In this document: one piece after another, positions 10,361 through 39,973 of the stretch
How positions within the stretch are numbered: the stretch's first letter is position 1
How the letters are laid out: the number at the start of each line of letters is the position of its first letter
NCBI GenBank assembly: GCA_003168375.1
Contig: PMSI01000003.1
Coordinates: forward strand, 62,001-126,000
DNA from: Vulcanimicrobiota bacterium
Lineage (GTDB): Bacteria; Vulcanimicrobiota; Vulcanimicrobiia; Vulcanimicrobiales; Vulcanimicrobiaceae
Direction of reading: 5' to 3'
Length of the DNA stretch: 64,000 nucleotides
Program-made: the position numbers and the translations under genes
The notes under the pieces: model-generated
Database searches by the model: none
What the model saw: only the letters and a program-made list of their open reading frames with translations
What the model was told of the DNA's origin: nothing

Positions 10361-11092
10361 TCAGCCGCCGAGGTAGGCTGCGACGACGTCGCGGTGGGTC
10401 GCGAGCTCGGCGCCGGTTCCGGTCAGGACGACGCGTCCGCGCTCCATGACGTAGGCGTGGTCGGCGAGGGCGAGCGCGCGGCGCGCGTTTTGCTCGACCA
10501 AAAGGATCGACGTTCCGCGTGCTCGCTCGTCGGCGACGATCGAGAAGATCTCGTCGACCAGCTTGGGGGCGAGGCCCATCGACGGTTCGTCGAGCAGCAG
10601 CGCCTTCGGTCCGATCGCGAGGGCGCGGGCGATCGCGAGCATCTGCTGCTCGCCGCCGGAGAGCGAGCCGGCGGGAAGGTTGCGGCGCGTGCGCAGGATC
10701 GGGAAGCGGTCGAAGAGTCCCTCGATGCGGCCGAAACCCGCTGCGCCGCTGACGCTTGCGGCGACTTGGAGGTTTTCCTCGACGCTCATGCCCGGGAGCA
10801 TCCGGCGGCCCTCGGGGACGAGCACCAGGCCGCGCCCGACCCTCGCGTGAGACGGGAGCCTGGTGATCTCGGCGCCGTCGAAGCGGACGTGACCGCCGCG
10901 CGTCGGCATCACCCCGGCGAGGGCCATCAGCAGGGTCGTCTTCCCGGCACCGTTCGCGCCGACGATCGCGCAGAGGGTGCGCTCTTCGAGCGCGATCGAG
11001 ACCTCGTGCAGCACCTCGATGTTGCCGTATCCGGCGCGCAGGGATTCGACCTCCAGCAGGATGCGGGGCGGCCCCGCCGGGACGGCGCTCAC
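10361..11092 (-). CDS. livF: ABC transporter ATP-binding protein, LivF type
   Basis: 243 residues with Walker A 'GANGAGKTT', signature 'LSGGEQQMLAIARAL', Walker B 'ALLLDEPSMGLAP' and switch His region 'LLVEQNARRAL'. 'LVPEGRRMLPGMSVEENL' is typical of LivF. It forms the ATPase pair with the LivG-like protein and drives uptake through the LivH/LivM-type permeases at the cytoplasmic face. The ATG overlaps the upstream stop by 4 bases. It is the last gene of the operon and is followed by the repeat region. Confidence 0.93.
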   Translation of the reverse strand: MSAVPAGPPRILLEVESLRAGYGNIEVLHEVSIALEERTLCAIVGANGAGKTTLLMALAGVMPTRGGHVRFDGAEITRLPSHARVGRGLVLVPEGRRMLPGMSVEENLQVAASVSGAAGFGRIEGLFDRFPILRTRRNLPAGSLSGGEQQMLAIARALAIGPKALLLDEPSMGLAPKLVDEIFSIVADERARGTSILLVEQNARRALALADHAYVMERGRVVLTGTGAELATHRDVVAAYLGG

Positions 11093-11811
11093 GCGAGGGC
11101 CTCGGCGCCGGTGCCCAGATAGGCCTCGACCACGACGGGGTCGCGGCCGACCTCGCTGGGCGTACCGCGCGCGATCGTCTGGCCGAAGTTGAGGACGACG
11201 ACCGAATCACACGCGGCGCGCACGAGCGGCATGTCGTGCTCGATCAGCAGCACGGCGATCCCGCCGGCGGCGATCGCGCGGATCGTGTCGACCAGCCGCG
11301 TGGTCTCGGACGGGTTCATCCCGGCGGCCGGCTCGTCGAGCATCAGGACGGCCGGCGAACCCGCCAGCGCGCGTGCGATCTCGAGCCGGCGCTGATCCCC
11401 GTACGGCAGCGAGCCGGCCCGCGCGGACAGGTCGGCCCCGGCGATCCCGGCGCGCTCCAGGAGCGTCGCGATCTCCGCGGCGCTCAGGCGGCCGGGCCGC
11501 GCGAACGCGCCCGCGGCCAGGTTCGCGTGGACGTCGAGCGCGCCGAAGAGTCGGATGTTCTGATAGGTGCGGGCGATCCCGGCGCGGGCGATGCGATGCG
11601 GCGGAAGCCCGTCGATCCGGGCGCCGTCGAGCGAGATCGTTCCCGACGCGAGCGGCGCCAGGCCGGTCGTCGCGTTGACTAGGGTCGTCTTGCCGGCACC
11701 GTTCGGTCCGATCAGACCCAGGACGTGGCCGCGCTCGACGGTCAGCGTGACGTCCCGCAGCGCGTCGACGCCGCCGTAGCGGACGCCGACGTCCTCGAGC
11801 ACGAGGCTCAC
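11089..11811 (-). CDS. livG: ABC transporter ATP-binding protein, LivG type
   Basis: 240 residues: Walker A 'GPNGAGKTTLVN', family signature 'GIARTYQNIRLFGAL', 'LPYGDQRRLEIARALAGSP', Walker B 'VLMLDEPAAGMNPSE', and 'LLIEHDMPLVRAACD'. The 'EPAAGMNPSET' wording is characteristic of LivG. The gene starts 10 bases after the LivM-like gene and its end overlaps livF (ATGA), giving coupled synthesis of the ATPase pair. Confidence 0.93.
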   Translation of the reverse strand: MSLVLEDVGVRYGGVDALRDVTLTVERGHVLGLIGPNGAGKTTLVNATTGLAPLASGTISLDGARIDGLPPHRIARAGIARTYQNIRLFGALDVHANLAAGAFARPGRLSAAEIATLLERAGIAGADLSARAGSLPYGDQRRLEIARALAGSPAVLMLDEPAAGMNPSETTRLVDTIRAIAAGGIAVLLIEHDMPLVRAACDSVVVLNFGQTIARGTPSEVGRDPVVVEAYLGTGAEALA

Positions 11812-13578: not shown

Positions 13579-14715
13579 TCAGTGAAAGTAGGCGAAGCCG
13601 TCCTTGACGATGGAGAGGATCACCGGGGACGATTTTACGTCGCGGTTGGAGTCGAAGCCGATTGGGCCGAGGACGGTTTGGATGACGCGCACGTTTTTGA
13701 GTCCGGCGGTCATCTCGTCCTTGGTCGTCGCGCCGTGCAGCACCAGATACGCGACGATCTGCGCGGCGGCGTACGACTGCGCGGCGAACTGATCGGGTCC
13801 CTTGCCGTACTTCGCGCTGTAGTGCTTCACGAAGTCGACGTTCGACGGATAGATTGCGCCGGAGAACCAGGCCGCGCCGACGACCGTGCCCTGCGCGGCT
13901 GGACCGGCGACGCTGTACATCTCGGGCGAGTTCAGTCCGTTCCCGCCCATCATGTGCGCCTTGATCCCGAGCTTACCGGCCTGCTGGATGATCTTCGTCG
14001 CCTCGGGGAAGAGCGCGCCGACCGCGATGACGTCCGGGTGCTTCGACTCGATCCGCGTCAGCGCGGCTTGGAAGTCGGTGTCCTTGATGTGGAACGTCTC
14101 GGTGTCGACGACGTCGATGCCCGCGGCCTTGAGCTCGCGCGCGAAGACGTCGCCGTCGGTCTTGGTGAACGCGTTGTCGTCACCGTAGATGATCGCCGCG
14201 GTCTTGTAGTGCCATTTGTCGTGCGTGCGCTTGACGGTGGTCGGGATCACCTGCGACTCGGCCAGCGAGTCGCGGAAGACCGTCGGTCCGATCGCCGTGA
14301 CGCCTTCGGCGGTCGTCGAGGTACCCATCACCGGGAAGTTCGCGGCCTTCGCGATCGGGAACGCCCGGAACGCCTCGCCCGACAGCGTCGGACCGAGCAC
14401 GATCGGGGTCTGTCCGTCGGTGGTGAACTTCTGCATCAGGTTGACCACCTGAGCACCGTCGGTCGCGGCGTCTTGTACGTCGAACACGAGGTTCGCGCCG
14501 CCCGCGTCGATCTTGCCGGACTTCACGTCGTCGTTGGCGAGCTCGTACGCGTTCTTCTGCGGCGTGCCGTAGACGCCGGCGCCGCCGGTGACGTCGGCGA
14601 TCACGCCGACGTGCACGGATTTGCCGGCGGCCGGCCCCTTCGAGGCTGCGCCCGACGGCGCGACGAGCGCGGCGATCGCGAGAAGCGCGAGCGCCGACAC
14701 CGTGTTTCGGTTCAT
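13579..14715 (-). CDS. livJ: Branched-chain amino acid-type substrate-binding protein
   Basis: 378 residues. Signal peptide 'MNRNTVSALALLAIAALVAPSGAAS' (in two parts), then a type I periplasmic-binding fold ('VHVGVIADVTGGAGVYGTPQ', 'VVNLMQKFTTDGQTPIVLGP', 'KTAAIIYGDDNAFTKTDGD'). A Met 12 bases upstream would also be in frame. The start at 14715 is preferred because GGAG lies 6 bases before it and its ATG forms an ATGA overlap with the upstream stop. Ligand choice is uncertain: Leu/Ile/Val, amides or aromatic acids are all used by this family. Confidence 0.92.
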   Translation of the reverse strand: MNRNTVSALALLAIAALVAPSGAASKGPAAGKSVHVGVIADVTGGAGVYGTPQKNAYELANDDVKSGKIDAGGANLVFDVQDAATDGAQVVNLMQKFTTDGQTPIVLGPTLSGEAFRAFPIAKAANFPVMGTSTTAEGVTAIGPTVFRDSLAESQVIPTTVKRTHDKWHYKTAAIIYGDDNAFTKTDGDVFARELKAAGIDVVDTETFHIKDTDFQAALTRIESKHPDVIAVGALFPEATKIIQQAGKLGIKAHMMGGNGLNSPEMYSVAGPAAQGTVVGAAWFSGAIYPSNVDFVKHYSAKYGKGPDQFAAQSYAAAQIVAYLVLHGATTKDEMTAGLKNVRVIQTVLGPIGFDSNRDVKSSPVILSIVKDGFAYFH

Positions 14716-15578
14716 CCTGTACTCCATGGGTCGCGTGGGATTGGGGCGCCGTTCGCAGGGCCACCGGCGGCATCCCCCGGCCAGGCAGCGTGCAAGTACG
14801 GACGGAGCATACGCATGAACGCTCCGAACCGCAGATCGTTCTCCTCACTGCTGGGCAGTTCCGTGTAGACGACGAGCACCCAGCGTGAAGAGTCGGCGAG
14901 CGTCAGGATCCCGGCGTCGTGCGCGACCTCGTCCGTGTCCCCGGTCTTGTGAGCGAACGAATCGCCGGTCCCCAGGCCTCGCGACAGCTTCACGTCCCAC
15001 CACGACGTGGCCATGATCTCCCGCAGCGCGGCGGCTCCGGGGACGCGGTCCGCGGCGATCGCAGCGAAGAGCCGGGCCGCCTCATGCGCCGGGAAGGCGT
15101 TGCGGCCGGTCGCTTCAGGATCGTCGATCAGGGGGAGATCGCCGGAGAGCTTGCGGCGGAAGGACGTCTCGGGGAAGCCGAGCGCTTGGACGTCCGCCGT
15201 GGCACGCTCGCGACCCAGGACGTCGTAGAGCTGGTTGGTCGCGACGTTGTCCGAGCGCTGCAGCATGAAGGTCGTCAGCTCGAGGACGGTGGTGGCGTAA
15301 CCAGGCTCGATCGGCGAGGGGGCGTCGTTCACCGTCGCGTTGCGGGGATCGACGACCACGCGTGTCTCCCAGTCCAGCCGGCCCGCGGCGATCGCGACCG
15401 TGACGGCGACGGCGAGCGGCACCTTGATCATCGAGGCGGGATAGATGAAGCGGCCGTCGTCCAGGCTCCAGGCCAAGCCCGCCGATACCAAGCTTTGGAC
15501 GTGAACCTGGGCCGCTCCGAGCCCCGTTTGCTCCGCGAGCGCGGCTAGGTCGGGTTGGTGCATCGAATCACGCTGCAA
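14712..15578 (-). CDS. Serine beta-lactamase-like hydrolase (class A fold)
   Basis: 288 residues with the three serine penicilloyl-enzyme motifs in order: S49-M-I-K52, S109-D-N111 and K211-T-G213. The omega-loop ExxLN of true class A enzymes is absent; the nearest is E155-A-T-G-R-N160, with different spacing. No signal peptide is visible from either possible start (15578 or 15563), unlike secreted beta-lactamases, although an upstream start could have been missed. The gene is first in the liv operon and ATGA-coupled to the binding-protein gene. It may therefore be an amidase/peptidase linked to uptake rather than a resistance enzyme. That role is inference. Confidence 0.82.
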   Translation of the reverse strand: MQRDSMHQPDLAALAEQTGLGAAQVHVQSLVSAGLAWSLDDGRFIYPASMIKVPLAVAVTVAIAAGRLDWETRVVVDPRNATVNDAPSPIEPGYATTVLELTTFMLQRSDNVATNQLYDVLGRERATADVQALGFPETSFRRKLSGDLPLIDDPEATGRNAFPAHEAARLFAAIAADRVPGAAALREIMATSWWDVKLSRGLGTGDSFAHKTGDTDEVAHDAGILTLADSSRWVLVVYTELPSSEENDLRFGAFMRMLRPYLHAAWPGDAAGGPANGAPIPRDPWSTG

Positions 15579-15581
15579 GCG

Positions 15582-15630
15582 GGTACTTGCACGAATCGCT
15601 TCGACTTGGTATCGTGTTCATGCAAGTACC
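15582..15630 (+). promoter_or_regulatory. Promoter with perfect inverted repeat between divergent genes
   Basis: GGTACTTGCA (15582-15591) and its exact reverse complement TGCAAGTACC (15621-15630) flank a promoter for the plus-strand gene. TTGCAC (15587-15592), a 17-base spacer and TATCGT (15610-15615) put the start of transcription near 15622. The left arm overlaps the -35 box and the right arm the start site, the classic layout of a repressor acting at two half-sites. The TetR-type gene at 16631 is a possible owner. Confidence 0.65.
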
Positions 15631-15637
15631 TACACGC

Positions 15638-16630
15638 ATGAATTTTATGGAAGACGCACACCAGAACCAGCTTCGTTTACACGCCGAGGATACCGACGCC
15701 CGTTCGGAGGTCACGGCGGCGGTCGATGCCTTGCTCGCCACCGACGCGAGGAACCCGCGGCTTCGCGTCGTTCTCGCCGGAGCGCGACTCCCGGACGAAT
15801 TGATCGCCGGCCTCGTGGCGGGGCTGCGCCGGCTGCGCGAACGCGGCGGGGCGATCGAGGTCGAGGCCGCGAGCACCGCGGTTCACGACACGCTGGCACT
15901 GACCGGTCTCGACCGCGTCTTCGCCTTCCCGTTGGTGCCGGCCGAGCCGGCCGGTCCGGAGCGGCCTCGCACGCTGGCGCGTCTGGTCGCGGCGTCGTTC
16001 GCGGCGTTCCTCGCGTTCGCCGGCCTGCCCGCGTTCGCGGCGGCCGACCACCCGACCGATCCCGCGCTGATCTTGGCGCGGGTCGAGGAGCGGAACCCGA
16101 GCCTGAGCACCTACCAAGGCCGGATGCACGTCGACCTGCGGATGACCTCGTTTCCGTTCGTCCGCCAGCACCTGGACGGGACGACGTTCTTCAAGCGTCC
16201 GTCGAACTACGAAGTCGTCTTCGACAAAGTGCCGCCGCTCGCGAAGGGCTTCGACAAGATGTTCGCCGACGTCGGCGATCCGTCGAGCTGGCCGCAGAGG
16301 TTCGCGATCACCTATGAAGGTGAGCACGACTACAACGGCCGCAAGGATATCCAGCTGCGGCTGGTCCAGCGCGTTCGCGGGATGATCGACCACGAGACGG
16401 TCCTGGTCGACCCGAACGCATGGGCGATCGACTCGATCCGTTACGACTATTACAACGGGGGGCACATCACCATGACGCAGACCTTCCGTGAGGTCGGCGG
16501 TTATTCGATGCTCGCCGAACAAGACGCCGAGATCGCGATCCCCTACGCGAAGGCCGTCGCGCACGGCACCTACTCAGACTACAAGGCCAACGTCGCCGTC
16601 GACGATTCGGTCTTCACGAAGAAGAAATAA
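15638..16630 (+). CDS. STAS-like domain fused to exported LolA-like domain
   Basis: 330 residues from the ATG at 15638, chosen because the promoter start lies near 15622; Met codons further upstream fall inside the promoter. The first ~100 residues look like a STAS/anti-sigma-antagonist fold ('LRVVLAGARLP', 'GLRRLRERGGAIEVEAAS', 'LTGLDRVFAF'). A hydrophobic segment with a signal-like end follows ('AASFAAFLAFAGLPAFAAAD'). The C-terminal ~190 residues resemble lipoprotein-sorting LolA-type beta folds ('YQGRMHVDLRM', 'TTFFKRPSNYEVVFDKVP'). The hydrophobic segment could be a membrane anchor placing the two domains on opposite sides. The TetR gene follows without a gap. Confidence 0.7.
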   Translation: MNFMEDAHQNQLRLHAEDTDARSEVTAAVDALLATDARNPRLRVVLAGARLPDELIAGLVAGLRRLRERGGAIEVEAASTAVHDTLALTGLDRVFAFPLVPAEPAGPERPRTLARLVAASFAAFLAFAGLPAFAAADHPTDPALILARVEERNPSLSTYQGRMHVDLRMTSFPFVRQHLDGTTFFKRPSNYEVVFDKVPPLAKGFDKMFADVGDPSSWPQRFAITYEGEHDYNGRKDIQLRLVQRVRGMIDHETVLVDPNAWAIDSIRYDYYNGGHITMTQTFREVGGYSMLAEQDAEIAIPYAKAVAHGTYSDYKANVAVDDSVFTKKK

Positions 16631-17224
16631 ATGCTCACGACCGGTCAGCGCTCACATGCCGGTGTCGAGGAGACGCGCGGCAAAATATTGGCCGCTGCGC
16701 GCGACCTGTTCGAACGGAACGGGACCCGCGGGACGACGACGCGGGAAGTCGCGGAGCGCGCCGGCGTCAACGAAGCGACGCTGTTCCGGCACTTCGGCTC
16801 GAAGCGCGCGCTGCTCGACGCGATGCGCGAGCAAGCATGCGGCGTCGAGCACCTGCGCTCGATCCTGGCCACGCTGCCCGGACTGGACTTCGCCGCCGAC
16901 TTGCGAACGCTCGCCTACTACACGGTCGAGCACATGCTCACGAAGCGCGCGATGATGTGCGTCTCGCTCGCCGAAGACGCGGCGGGAACCGACGACGCGC
17001 CTGAGTGGCGCGGGCCCTCGCAGATCCACACCGACCTCGCCGCGTACTTCACGGCCAAGTTTGAAGCGGGGCAGATCCGGGGCGAGCCGACCTTGGTGGC
17101 GCGCTATTTCATGGGCATCCTGTTCTCGTACGTCGTGGGGCGAAAGCTCTGGCACAGCGAGGTCCCGGATCGGGCCGTGCTCGATGCCATCGTCGACGTC
17201 TTCATCAACGGAGTCTCAGCCTAA
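16631..17224 (+). CDS. TetR-family transcriptional regulator
   Basis: 197 residues. The N-terminal helix-turn-helix is typical ('ILAAARDLFERNGTRGTTTREVAERAG', then 'NEATLFRHFGSKRALLDAM'), followed by a helical ligand-binding domain. Its ATG immediately follows the preceding stop. The efflux adaptor gene begins 3 bases after its own stop. It therefore probably controls the adaptor and outer-membrane channel, possibly through the inverted repeat at 15582-15630. Confidence 0.92.
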   Translation: MLTTGQRSHAGVEETRGKILAAARDLFERNGTRGTTTREVAERAGVNEATLFRHFGSKRALLDAMREQACGVEHLRSILATLPGLDFAADLRTLAYYTVEHMLTKRAMMCVSLAEDAAGTDDAPEWRGPSQIHTDLAAYFTAKFEAGQIRGEPTLVARYFMGILFSYVVGRKLWHSEVPDRAVLDAIVDVFINGVSA

Positions 17225-17227
17225 GCC

Positions 17228-18646
17228 TTGGAAACGCGCACTGAAGCTCCCGCGCAGCGACCCCTCCCGGACGGCCGCGGCGCTCCACCGCCTGCCGCAC
17301 CCGTTCCGCCGCCGCCTGCGGCCCCCGCCGCCGAGGTGACGGCGTCCAAGCGCCGGCGCCAGCCGGTCCTCGTGCTGGTGATCGGCGCGATCGTCGTGAT
17401 CGCCGCGCTCATCTGGGGGATCCGCTATCTCGCCTACGCCTCGACGCACCAGACGACCGACGACGCGCGCGTCGATGCCGACACGGTGACCATCTCGAGC
17501 AAGATCGAGCAACGCGTGGCGCAGATCCTGGTCGACACCGACCAGCCCGTGCGCAAGGGCCAGATCATCATTCGCTTCGACGACACCGACGAGCGCGCCG
17601 CGCTGCAGCAGGCCCAGGCCGGTCTGCAGGCACAGCGCGCGACCGCACGAGCGGCGCAGGAGAACGTCTCGCTCACCGCCGCTCAAGTTGCCGCGCAGGC
17701 GACGCAGGGGGCGGGCAGCGTCGCGGCAGCCCGCAGCGGGATCCAGAATGCCGCAGCGCAGGCGCAGTCGGCGCAGCAGCAAGCCGACGCCGCGCGCTCG
17801 GCGATCGGACAAGCGCAGGCGCAGCTTCGCGTCGCGCAGTCGCAGGTGCCGGCGGCACGCGCCGCATTGCAGCGTGCGAACCTCGACCTGGCTCGTTATA
17901 TCGCGCTCGTCCGCACCGGCGACATCGCATCGCAACAGCTCGACGCGCAGCGCGCTGCGCAGGCGCAGGCGCAATCGCAGTACCAGGCCGCACTCGACAA
18001 CGTCGCCGCCGCCCAGACCGGCGTCGCGCAGGCGCAAGCGCGCTACACCGCGTCCCTGTCGACCGCGAATGCCGCAACGGCCGGGATCGGCGCTCAGCAA
18101 GGTCAGCTGGAAACGGCGCAAGGGCGGCTGACCGAAAGCGACAATCCGTACCGCGTCTCGGCGACGCAGGCGCAAGCCGACGCCGCCTTCGCGCAAGCCG
18201 GTTCGCTCCAAGCGCAGGTCAACGCCGCCCAGAACCGCCTCGACAAGACGGTGCTCCGTGCCCCGATCGACGGCTTCGTCGGGGCGAAGAACGTCGCGAT
18301 CGGCGCCGCGGTTGCGCCCGGGCAATCGCTGATGACGCTCGTGCCCTCGCGCGGGATCTACATCACCGCGAACTACAAAGAGACGCAACTCGGCATGGTC
18401 AGGGTCGGACAACCGGTCGACCTCAAGGTCGACGCCTACAAGGGCGTTGACTTCCACGGCCACGTCGCGGCGATCGCGCCGGCCTCGCAGAACACGTTCA
18501 GCCTGGTGCCGGCTCAGAACGCGACCGGGAACTTCGTGAAGGTGACGCAGCGGCTGCCGGTGCGCATCCTGGTCGACGATCCGCCGCAGGGCTATCCGCT
18601 GCGGGTCGGCATGTCGGTCGAGACCGCGATCAACGTCGGCAAGTAG
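17228..18646 (+). CDS. HlyD/EmrA-type efflux membrane fusion protein
   Basis: 472 residues, TTG start. A proline/alanine-rich cytoplasmic leader (1-40) precedes one membrane helix (about 45-66), the biotinyl-lipoyl half-motif ('TTDDARVDADTVTISSKI'), and a very long Ala/Gln-rich coiled-coil hairpin (about 110-330). The second half-motif and barrel follow ('VLRAPIDGFVGAKNVAIGAAV', 'IYITANYKETQLGMVRVGQPV'). The 'NYKETQL' block is characteristic of EmrA. It bridges an inner-membrane MFS pump and a TolC channel. No pump gene is adjacent; the nearest is the MFS gene at 21285. Confidence 0.9.
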   Translation: METRTEAPAQRPLPDGRGAPPPAAPVPPPPAAPAAEVTASKRRRQPVLVLVIGAIVVIAALIWGIRYLAYASTHQTTDDARVDADTVTISSKIEQRVAQILVDTDQPVRKGQIIIRFDDTDERAALQQAQAGLQAQRATARAAQENVSLTAAQVAAQATQGAGSVAAARSGIQNAAAQAQSAQQQADAARSAIGQAQAQLRVAQSQVPAARAALQRANLDLARYIALVRTGDIASQQLDAQRAAQAQAQSQYQAALDNVAAAQTGVAQAQARYTASLSTANAATAGIGAQQGQLETAQGRLTESDNPYRVSATQAQADAAFAQAGSLQAQVNAAQNRLDKTVLRAPIDGFVGAKNVAIGAAVAPGQSLMTLVPSRGIYITANYKETQLGMVRVGQPVDLKVDAYKGVDFHGHVAAIAPASQNTFSLVPAQNATGNFVKVTQRLPVRILVDDPPQGYPLRVGMSVETAINVGK

Positions 18647-39100: not shown

Positions 39101-39973
39101 CTACGACGGATACGGGGATCGTTCCGCCGCGGCGTACGCTCTCGCGGTCCGCTCGACCGTGCGACGTGGCGCCAGGCCGATCAGCTCGCTGCGGGCGACC
39201 GCGACGCCCCGGCGCGCGGCCGCACGCCGAATCAGCTCGGTGACGCGATAGAGCGGCACCGCATCGACGTCGGTCAGGTTGCACGAGACTTGGACGCGGC
39301 CGGCGCCCAGGCGCAGTCCCAGACACTTCAGCGAGCGCAGACCGCCGTTTGACGCTCTCAGCGTCCGGGCGATCCCCTTCGCCAGTGCGAGGTCGTCGCT
39401 CGCCAGCTCGACGTTGTACGCGATCAGGAACGGCCGGGCACCGATCGCGATCGCGCCGGCCGATGCGTGTGTCGCGTCGCCGTAGTCGAATCGCCAGTCC
39501 GGGCCGGCGGCTAACCGATCGGCGAGTCCTTCGAATCCGCCGCGGCGGAGCTCGGCCAGGTGTGCGCGGTGCGGCGCGCTCGCCGCCGCGCCGTAGAGAT
39601 ACGATGGGATGCCAAGCTCGCGCCAGATGCGGGCCGCCGCGCGGTGCGCCAGCGAGACTGCCTCATCGAGCGTCGCCGCGCCGAGCGGGACGAACGGCAG
39701 CACGTCGAGTGCGCCGATCCGCGGGTGCGCGCCGCGATGGCGTCGCAGATCGATGCGCGCGTGCGCAACGCGCGCCAGCGCAACGGAAGCCGCGACGACC
39801 TGCGACGCGCGCCCGATCGCGGTGATCACGCTGCGGTGGTGAACCGGATCGCTCATGCGGTGCACGACCTGCGCGCCTTCCGTCTCCATCGCCGCGACGC
39901 ACGCATCGATCACGCTCCGATCGCGCCCCTCGCTGACGTTCGGCACGATCTCGAACTCGTACGAACCGCTCAC
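39101..39973 (-). CDS. Glutamate formimidoyltransferase (FtcD-like)
   Basis: 290 residues from GTG at 39973, which overlaps the S9 peptidase stop (GTGA). Family motifs: 'IVPNVSEGRDRSVIDA', 'VHHRSVITAIG', 'HRGAHPRIGALDVLPFVPL', 'IPSYLYGAAASA' and 'VQVSCNLTDVDAVPLYRV'. In histidine breakdown this enzyme moves the formimino group from formiminoglutamate to tetrahydrofolate. No other hut genes are here, so the substrate in this organism is uncertain. The cyclodeaminase half of mammalian FtcD is absent. Confidence 0.9.
   Translation of the reverse strand: MSGSYEFEIVPNVSEGRDRSVIDACVAAMETEGAQVVHRMSDPVHHRSVITAIGRASQVVAASVALARVAHARIDLRRHRGAHPRIGALDVLPFVPLGAATLDEAVSLAHRAAARIWRELGIPSYLYGAAASAPHRAHLAELRRGGFEGLADRLAAGPDWRFDYGDATHASAGAIAIGARPFLIAYNVELASDDLALAKGIARTLRASNGGLRSLKCLGLRLGAGRVQVSCNLTDVDAVPLYRVTELIRRAAARRGVAVARSELIGLAPRRTVERTARAYAAAERSPYPS

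Follow-up and report, generated by a model that had tools for sequence, protein, structure and literature searches.

The window analysed here, a stretch of 64,000 nucleotides from contig PMSI01000003.1 of a Vulcanimicrobiota bacterium (assembly GCA_003168375.1), contains a gene for a hydrolase of the class A beta-lactamase fold that is flanked by two different groups of genes (Table 1). On one side, and on the same strand, lie the genes of a transporter that Pfam places in the HAAT/liv type; all of them score below the NCBIfam Liv cut-offs, and the models assign no substrate. On the other side, a divergent gene is followed by genes for a TetR-family regulator and two components of an efflux pump. 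The start codon of the divergent gene is uncertain, and the listed start overlaps the first of two palindromic sites. In a related locus (L131) the STAS-like part and the second half of this gene are separate neighbouring genes, the first of which scores over the STAS cut-off.

Table 1. Features of the hydrolase locus, in window coordinates
Feature	Coordinates	Strand	Remarks
LivF-like ATPase	10361..11092	-	below NCBIfam LivF cut-off
LivG-like ATPase	11089..11811	-	below NCBIfam LivG cut-off
LivM-like permease, PF02653	11822..12670	-	below NCBIfam LivM cut-off
LivH-like permease, PF02653	12679..13560	-	below NCBIfam LivH cut-off
Peripla_BP_6 (HAAT-type) binding protein	13579..14715	-	hydrophobic leader; start overlaps hydrolase stop by ATGA
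PF13354 class-A-fold hydrolase	14712..15563	-	283 aa from likely ATG; without recognisable signal peptide
HKTGDTDE of hydrolase	14951-14928	-	residues 205-212
Omega-like loop of hydrolase	15155-15099	-	R137-N155
SDN of hydrolase	15254-15246	-	residues 104-106
SxxK of hydrolase	15434-15423	-	S44-M-I-K47
Palindromic operator-like site, copy 1	15574..15591	.	14/16 to TGCAAGTANNTACTTGCA
Palindromic operator-like site, copy 2	15621..15638	.	14/16; 47 bp from copy 1
Divergent gene	15587..16630	+	weak STAS_2 match (below cut-off) fused to part without Pfam match
TetR-family regulator	16631..17224	+	presumed binder of both palindromes
EmrA/HlyD-type adaptor	17228..18646	+	L045 relative matches EmrA/EmrK model below cut-off
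TolC-type outer-membrane efflux protein, PF02321	18651..20594	+	
PF02971 (FTCD) partial match	39119-39430	minus	

The ATG at 15563 is a likelier start for the hydrolase than the listed TTG at 15578 because the closest relatives (L031-L033) share it. An in-frame TGA sits 14 codons upstream of this TTG and therefore leaves no place for a missed upstream signal peptide, which the initial annotation had named, together with robust beta-lactam hydrolysis, as a finding that would overturn its reading. The best 12-residue hydrophobic window at the N-terminus scores 1.26 on the Kyte-Doolittle scale, compared with 2.89 in the adjacent binding protein. This test is crude, and export was judged from it together with the upstream stop; both agree with the earlier remark that a signal peptide is not evident. 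No upstream leader was seen by eye among 32 aligned orthologues. In three orthologues (L115, L117 and L118) a hydrophobic stretch scores 2.07-2.48, which is inside the range of exported paralogues, and the separation of orthologues from exported paralogues consequently relies on position and not on score alone; at its place in the protein, this stretch is read as the first strand. The absence of a recognisable signal peptide suggests that the hydrolase is cytosolic.

The hydrolase matches PF13354 (Beta-lactamase2) with 125.9 bits against a cut-off of 22 (E 1.9e-36). The SxxK, SDN and KTG motifs, described as intact in the initial annotation, were all located in the open reading frame 14712-15578 on the minus strand, and the 32 aligned orthologues show SxxK, SDN and HKTGDTDE without variation. 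At the place of the class A ExxLN motif the hydrolase has the loop RKLSGDLPLIDDPEATGRN, and ExxLN was found neither there nor in the corresponding loop of the 32 orthologues, as had been proposed for the window alone. Asp148 in this loop is invariant, and two alignments to PBP-A disagree on whether it could take the place of Glu166. The fold and the three motifs would suit an ordinary class A beta-lactamase conferring resistance. However, the protein has neither signal peptide nor ExxLN, reaches only 54.3 bits with the NCBIfam bla_class_A model (cut-off 200) and stays far below every listed NCBIfam beta-lactamase cut-off. We rejected this explanation on motif, signal and model scores and regard it as highly improbable.

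By sequence, PBP-A is the solved protein closest to the hydrolase (1e-13 with the single sequence and 2.9e-27 with a profile of the 32 orthologues), and named class A enzymes begin at about 3e-17 in the same profile search. The combination by which PBP-A is recognised, that is, the fold and the three motifs without Glu166, is found in the hydrolase. A structural model, which the initial annotation had proposed as a check, was obtained with AlphaFold from the family alignment (mean pLDDT 91.9, pTM 0.89) and has the class A/PBP-A fold. Foldseek ranks BlaB, PBP-A and 4ewf first. With VIA-align the model superimposes on PBP-A with Z 29.9 and rmsd 2.4 over 249 residues, followed by LRA-5 (Z 29.3) and by class A enzymes (Z 29.2 to 28) among the best 50 rows. 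In the fold searches, LRA-5 and the class A enzymes thus trail PBP-A by no more than about one to two Z; with so small a gap the fold is common to all of them, and it is the motifs that must decide between PBP-A and class A. By itself, the modelled fold decides for neither. Where to draw the line between DD-peptidases and class A beta-lactamases is a long-standing question. The earlier suggestion of a repurposed beta-lactamase fold is best restated as a repurposed or ancestral form; the curated beta-lactamase models fail, and PBP-A is closest by sequence.

PBP-A (Thermosynechococcus elongatus Tll2115; 2j7v, 2j9o, 2j8y) shares with the hydrolase the SxxK, SDN and HKTGD motifs and the absence of Glu166, and it is also among the best structure matches. 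In the excerpted text of PMC11189452 it is described as cyanobacterial and, from assays on muropeptides, as a DD-carboxypeptidase/endopeptidase specific for amidated muropeptides, which are gated by Glu96. The hydrolase differs in its RKLSG..PLI.DP loop, in its TxND..SP and HKTGDTDE..HD motifs and in its neighbours. LRA-5 (8eo5), a soil protein studied as a precursor of class A beta-lactamases, has the same fold but falls outside the hydrolase clade and context as far as tested; the Val166Glu in the title of PMC12777564 implies that it has no native Glu166, and the wild type gives control-level MICs in the excerpt of that source. BlaB of Streptomyces cacaoi (2wuq; 5.4e-18, 22% identity) is a beta-lactamase regulatory protein by its PDB name, whereas the neighbours of the hydrolase are amino-acid and efflux genes. 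Two further class-A-like proteins, 4hes (Veillonella) and 4ewf (Sphaerobacter), are close by profile; the former shares HKTGSLDRVEHDGG, and the loop of the latter begins SRKMKG.

Our comparison set consisted of 60 related genomes, 55 of the same class and five of other classes. All 60 contain a match to the hydrolase at E <=0.001; at 100 bits or more, 53 of the 55 class genomes have one and none of the five outside the class does. The two class genomes without an orthologue are G027 and G036. In G049 the gene is split over two contigs, and the tree holds its N-terminal part. A 100/100 branch separates the 53 orthologues from eight distant homologues. Three of these eight come from other classes, and some (for example L085 and L086) carry evident signal sequences. 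The hydrolase is thus a distinct branch of the PBP-A/class A fold without an export signal. Named relatives are mostly records of Candidatus Eremiobacterota or WPS-2; the matches in phages (two records) and plasmids (one record) are all distant, and a PHROGs search with the hydrolase returned nothing useful. In the third-family orthologues that were displayed, the TxND..SP motif is altered. Other PF13354 proteins, some of them exported, also exist in these genomes (G000:C4:811416-812057 and relatives), and in G030, G012, G047, G044 and G043 a PF13354 protein adjoins a PF00491 (arginase-family) gene.

Gene neighbourhoods were compared in 34 loci of the same family plus the window (35 in total), in four loci of a sister family and in 14 loci of a third family. 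The initial annotation had the hydrolase leading an amino-acid transporter operon to which it is ATGA-coupled. The coupling is real for a binding-protein start at 14715, which has GGAG six bases upstream, and does not apply to the start of the longer open reading frame at 14727; the exact overlap occurs in four of the 17 liv-type loci (the window, L031, L032 and L033). The operon arrangement itself holds in all 11 members of the genus, as far as contigs reach, and in six other genera, which amounts to 17 of 35 family loci; the contigs of L037 and L040 end too soon to show the later liv genes. The hydrolase and binding-protein genes of L034 and L039 are separated by a long open stretch of some 900 codons, which by its signature resembles a methyl-accepting chemotaxis protein. 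Beyond the family the linkage is retained only in part: liv genes lie divergent from hut genes in three of four sister-family clusters and beside the hydrolase in none of the 14 third-family loci. On these counts liv was set aside as the probable conserved core of the locus; the linkage exists but is limited.

These counts bear on the proposal that the hydrolase frees the transporter's own substrate from a peptide or amide. The downstream liv genes in the genus and six further genera, as well as the divergent liv genes of the sister family, are what this proposal would lead one to expect. On the other hand, an enzyme without a signal peptide would act after and not before transport, 17 of the 35 family loci have no downstream liv genes and one more, L063, ends too early to show them, and all 14 third-family loci lack them as well. 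We consider that the proposal has a slim chance of being correct; the initial observation as such is confirmed, and its interpretation is supported in part.

The TetR/EmrA(B)/TolC module is tied to the hydrolase more constantly than liv is. In the family, TetR is present on the other side of the hydrolase in 34 of 35 loci and EmrA in 33 of 35; L031 ends early and L067 lacks both. Paired palindromes like TGCAAGTA-NN-TACTTGCA sit between the hydrolase and the divergent gene. A site with at least 13 of 16 positions matching occurs within 200 bases upstream of the hydrolase in 31 of the 35 family loci, compared with 3 of 985,271 positions in the rest of the 60 fetched loci, a contrast that is partly by construction since the motif was derived from these upstream regions. 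The exceptions are L040 and L062, which reach 12, L067 with no site, and L052 (G025), where the site is about 260 bases upstream. When whole genomes were searched with at most two mismatches, 50 sites were found in 32 of the 60 genomes, and 44 of them are at the hydrolase locus; the control pattern, read backwards, gave 17 matches in 15 of 60 genomes. The genome of the window (4.43 Mb) has two sites at this threshold, both at the hydrolase locus, and no control match. In G040 the site lies between the hydrolase and TetR genes, and none of the 14 third-family genomes has a site. The arrangement points to a putative operator at which TetR would bind the paired palindromes; both this binding and the direction in which TetR would regulate are things that we infer.

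It is possible that the hydrolase is a partner of the EmrA(B)/TolC pump, acting as a sensor, scavenger or detoxifier that binds or hydrolyses a toxic cytosolic compound or signals to TetR, and in this respect it would be comparable to the S. cacaoi BlaB. No other neighbours recur in the family as constantly as TetR and EmrA, the paired sites are shared by hydrolase and pump and concentrate at this locus, and BlaB is the top Foldseek match. In the sister family, however, the hydrolase gene is downstream of a HutF-like gene and is not divergent from the pump, no pump gene was found beside the third-family orthologues, and a pure sensor need not keep catalytic motifs that are intact here. We regard a role as pump partner as unlikely, with a small but appreciable chance.

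A second group of neighbours is related to histidine degradation. A convergent hut operon is found in 11 of the 35 family loci, as far as each locus reaches, and neither liv nor convergent hut genes are seen in seven loci, among them L063, which stops 549 bases past the hydrolase. In all four sister-family loci the hut genes, the hydrolase, TetR and EmrA are on one strand, and three of them have the order HutH-HutU-HutI-HutF-like-hydrolase-TetR-EmrA (the contig of L053 ends before HutH). EmrB is present in three of the four, with L047 ending early. By coordinates, the hydrolase start overlaps the stop of the HutF-like gene as GTGA in L045 and as ATGA in L047, and the junction is similar in L051 and L053. 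HutH, HutU and HutI of L045 are over the NCBIfam cut-offs; the HutF-like protein is below (181 versus 413), and the solved proteins closest to it are other amidohydrolases. No liv, hut or TetR/Emr neighbours occur in the 14 third-family loci. Six of them that were displayed have a long open reading frame of 1,323-1,430 codons nearby, which proved to be a fused 2-oxoglutarate dehydrogenase in the one scanned (L079), and Pfam gave no match for the third-family neighbours L079 5336-6328, L079 2559-3314, L075 10379-11335 and L068 5554-6300.

A strict dependence between hydrolase and hut genes was rejected. G027 and G036 retain the hut and efflux cluster with the hydrolase gone. Six class genomes have the hydrolase and no HutU match (G017, G028, G031, G035, G053 and G054, the last three being 72-86% complete), which indicates that histidine breakdown is not the only role of the hydrolase. 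Part of the locus linkage may also be passive synteny, since the gene for AnmK is on the same contig 25-83 kb from the hydrolase in 17 genomes.

The position in the sister family raises the possibility that the hydrolase is a beta-lactamase-fold N-formyl-L-glutamate deformylase that replaces HutG, completes histidine degradation in Eremiobacteria and is coupled to the efflux pump. This reading draws on the direct, overlapping succession of the hydrolase to the HutF-like gene and on the acyl-NH-CHR-COO- shape that N-formylglutamate shares with DD-peptidase substrates. HutG (PF05013), the N-formylglutamate amidohydrolase, belongs to an unrelated family; the hydrolase would possibly share its reaction and its place in the hut operon. 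Set against a near-universal hydrolase, the counts are as follows: among 18 genomes with the divergent HutF-like type, PF05013 is found in none and the hydrolase in 16 (G027 and G036 lack both enzymes), and among 17 genomes with classical HutF, PF05013 is found in nine and the remaining eight all have the hydrolase. The 17 comprise 16 over the cut-off and G032, whose two pieces (222 and 205 bits) look like a classical HutF in two frames. The two HutF types occur together in none of the 55 class genomes. As the lead explanation this reading was set aside because PF05013 coexists with the hydrolase in seven of the 11 genomes of the genus and because of the genomes without HutU and of G027 and G036; we give it a rather small chance. 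In the third family, histidine breakdown may be finished by formimidoyl transfer, as a partial match to FTCD (formimidoyltransferase-like) is found near HutI there; such partial matches occur in 58 of the 60 genomes, so that Eremiobacteria at large may use this ending, which also speaks against the deformylase reading. PF00491, a family that includes formimidoylglutamases and thus offers another possible route, is present in 56 of 60.

The main rival explanation places the hydrolase in the recycling of peptidoglycan, as a cytosolic carboxypeptidase that removes D-Ala (or a different D-residue) from stem peptides under recycling and stands in for LdcA. The solved protein nearest to the hydrolase by sequence, PBP-A, is, in the excerpt of PMC11189452, a DD-carboxypeptidase/endopeptidase. 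The recycling enzyme AnmK is present in 53 of 60 genomes and LdcA (PF02016) in only nine, and both family members without the hydrolase have LdcA; the association of LdcA with loss of the hydrolase gives p = 0.054 within the family and p = 0.024 over the class by a post hoc Fisher test. Yet Mpl is over the cut-off in none of the 60 genomes, so that the recycled tripeptide may not be needed, seven of the nine LdcA genomes have the hydrolase too, and the neighbours of the hydrolase are not cell-wall genes. Moreover, the PBP-A specificity residue Glu96 aligns with the invariant Asn79 of the hydrolase (by sequence alignment only). These findings leave the recycling role improbable, with a chance that is small but worth keeping in view.

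The explanation that we favour, tentatively and with somewhat less than even confidence, is that the hydrolase is a cytosolic serine amidase of the PBP-A/class A fold that serves amino-acid catabolism and is co-regulated with the efflux pump. The chemistry shared across the superfamily is that a serine is acylated and an amine with a free carboxylate is released. In the hydrolase, Lys47 and SDN would assist the acylation of Ser44, and the leaving amino acid would be held at its free carboxylate by the HKTG-D strand, in the manner of DD-peptidases. The lack of export, a KTG strand that would hold a carboxylate and neighbours for amino-acid uptake and breakdown together suggest a small N-acyl-amino acid or a dipeptide-like amide as the substrate, which would be cleaved inside the cell, and the product would feed amino-acid catabolism, probably of histidine or the glutamate family. 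The locus-specific TetR on the paired palindromes would switch the hydrolase and the EmrA(B)/TolC module and, in the genus of the window, also the HAAT-type amino-acid importer. Among the papers listed on Eremiobacterota (with beta-lactamase, or with histidine or amino acid transport, the latter as 10 of 5,261), on histidine utilisation with N-formylglutamate and on hut genes with efflux and TetR genes, none describes this system in its title or the opening lines of its abstract, and formiminoglutamate gave no hit. If the serine amidase interpretation is correct, this conserved branch, which lacks the class A deacylation loop, acts in the cytosol and serves amino-acid catabolism instead of the cell wall, which would be a third use of the fold.

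Two further observations concern the hut genes. Elsewhere in the genome of the window lies a classical hut locus that encodes HutU, HutH, PF05013, HutI and HutF (G000:C2:211000-230900; L136). A conserved small, apparently secreted protein and a WYL-domain regulator are encoded upstream of HutH (L131 13660-15250 and L132 14986-16784), the former having no Pfam match in a scan of the pair that covered L131 only.
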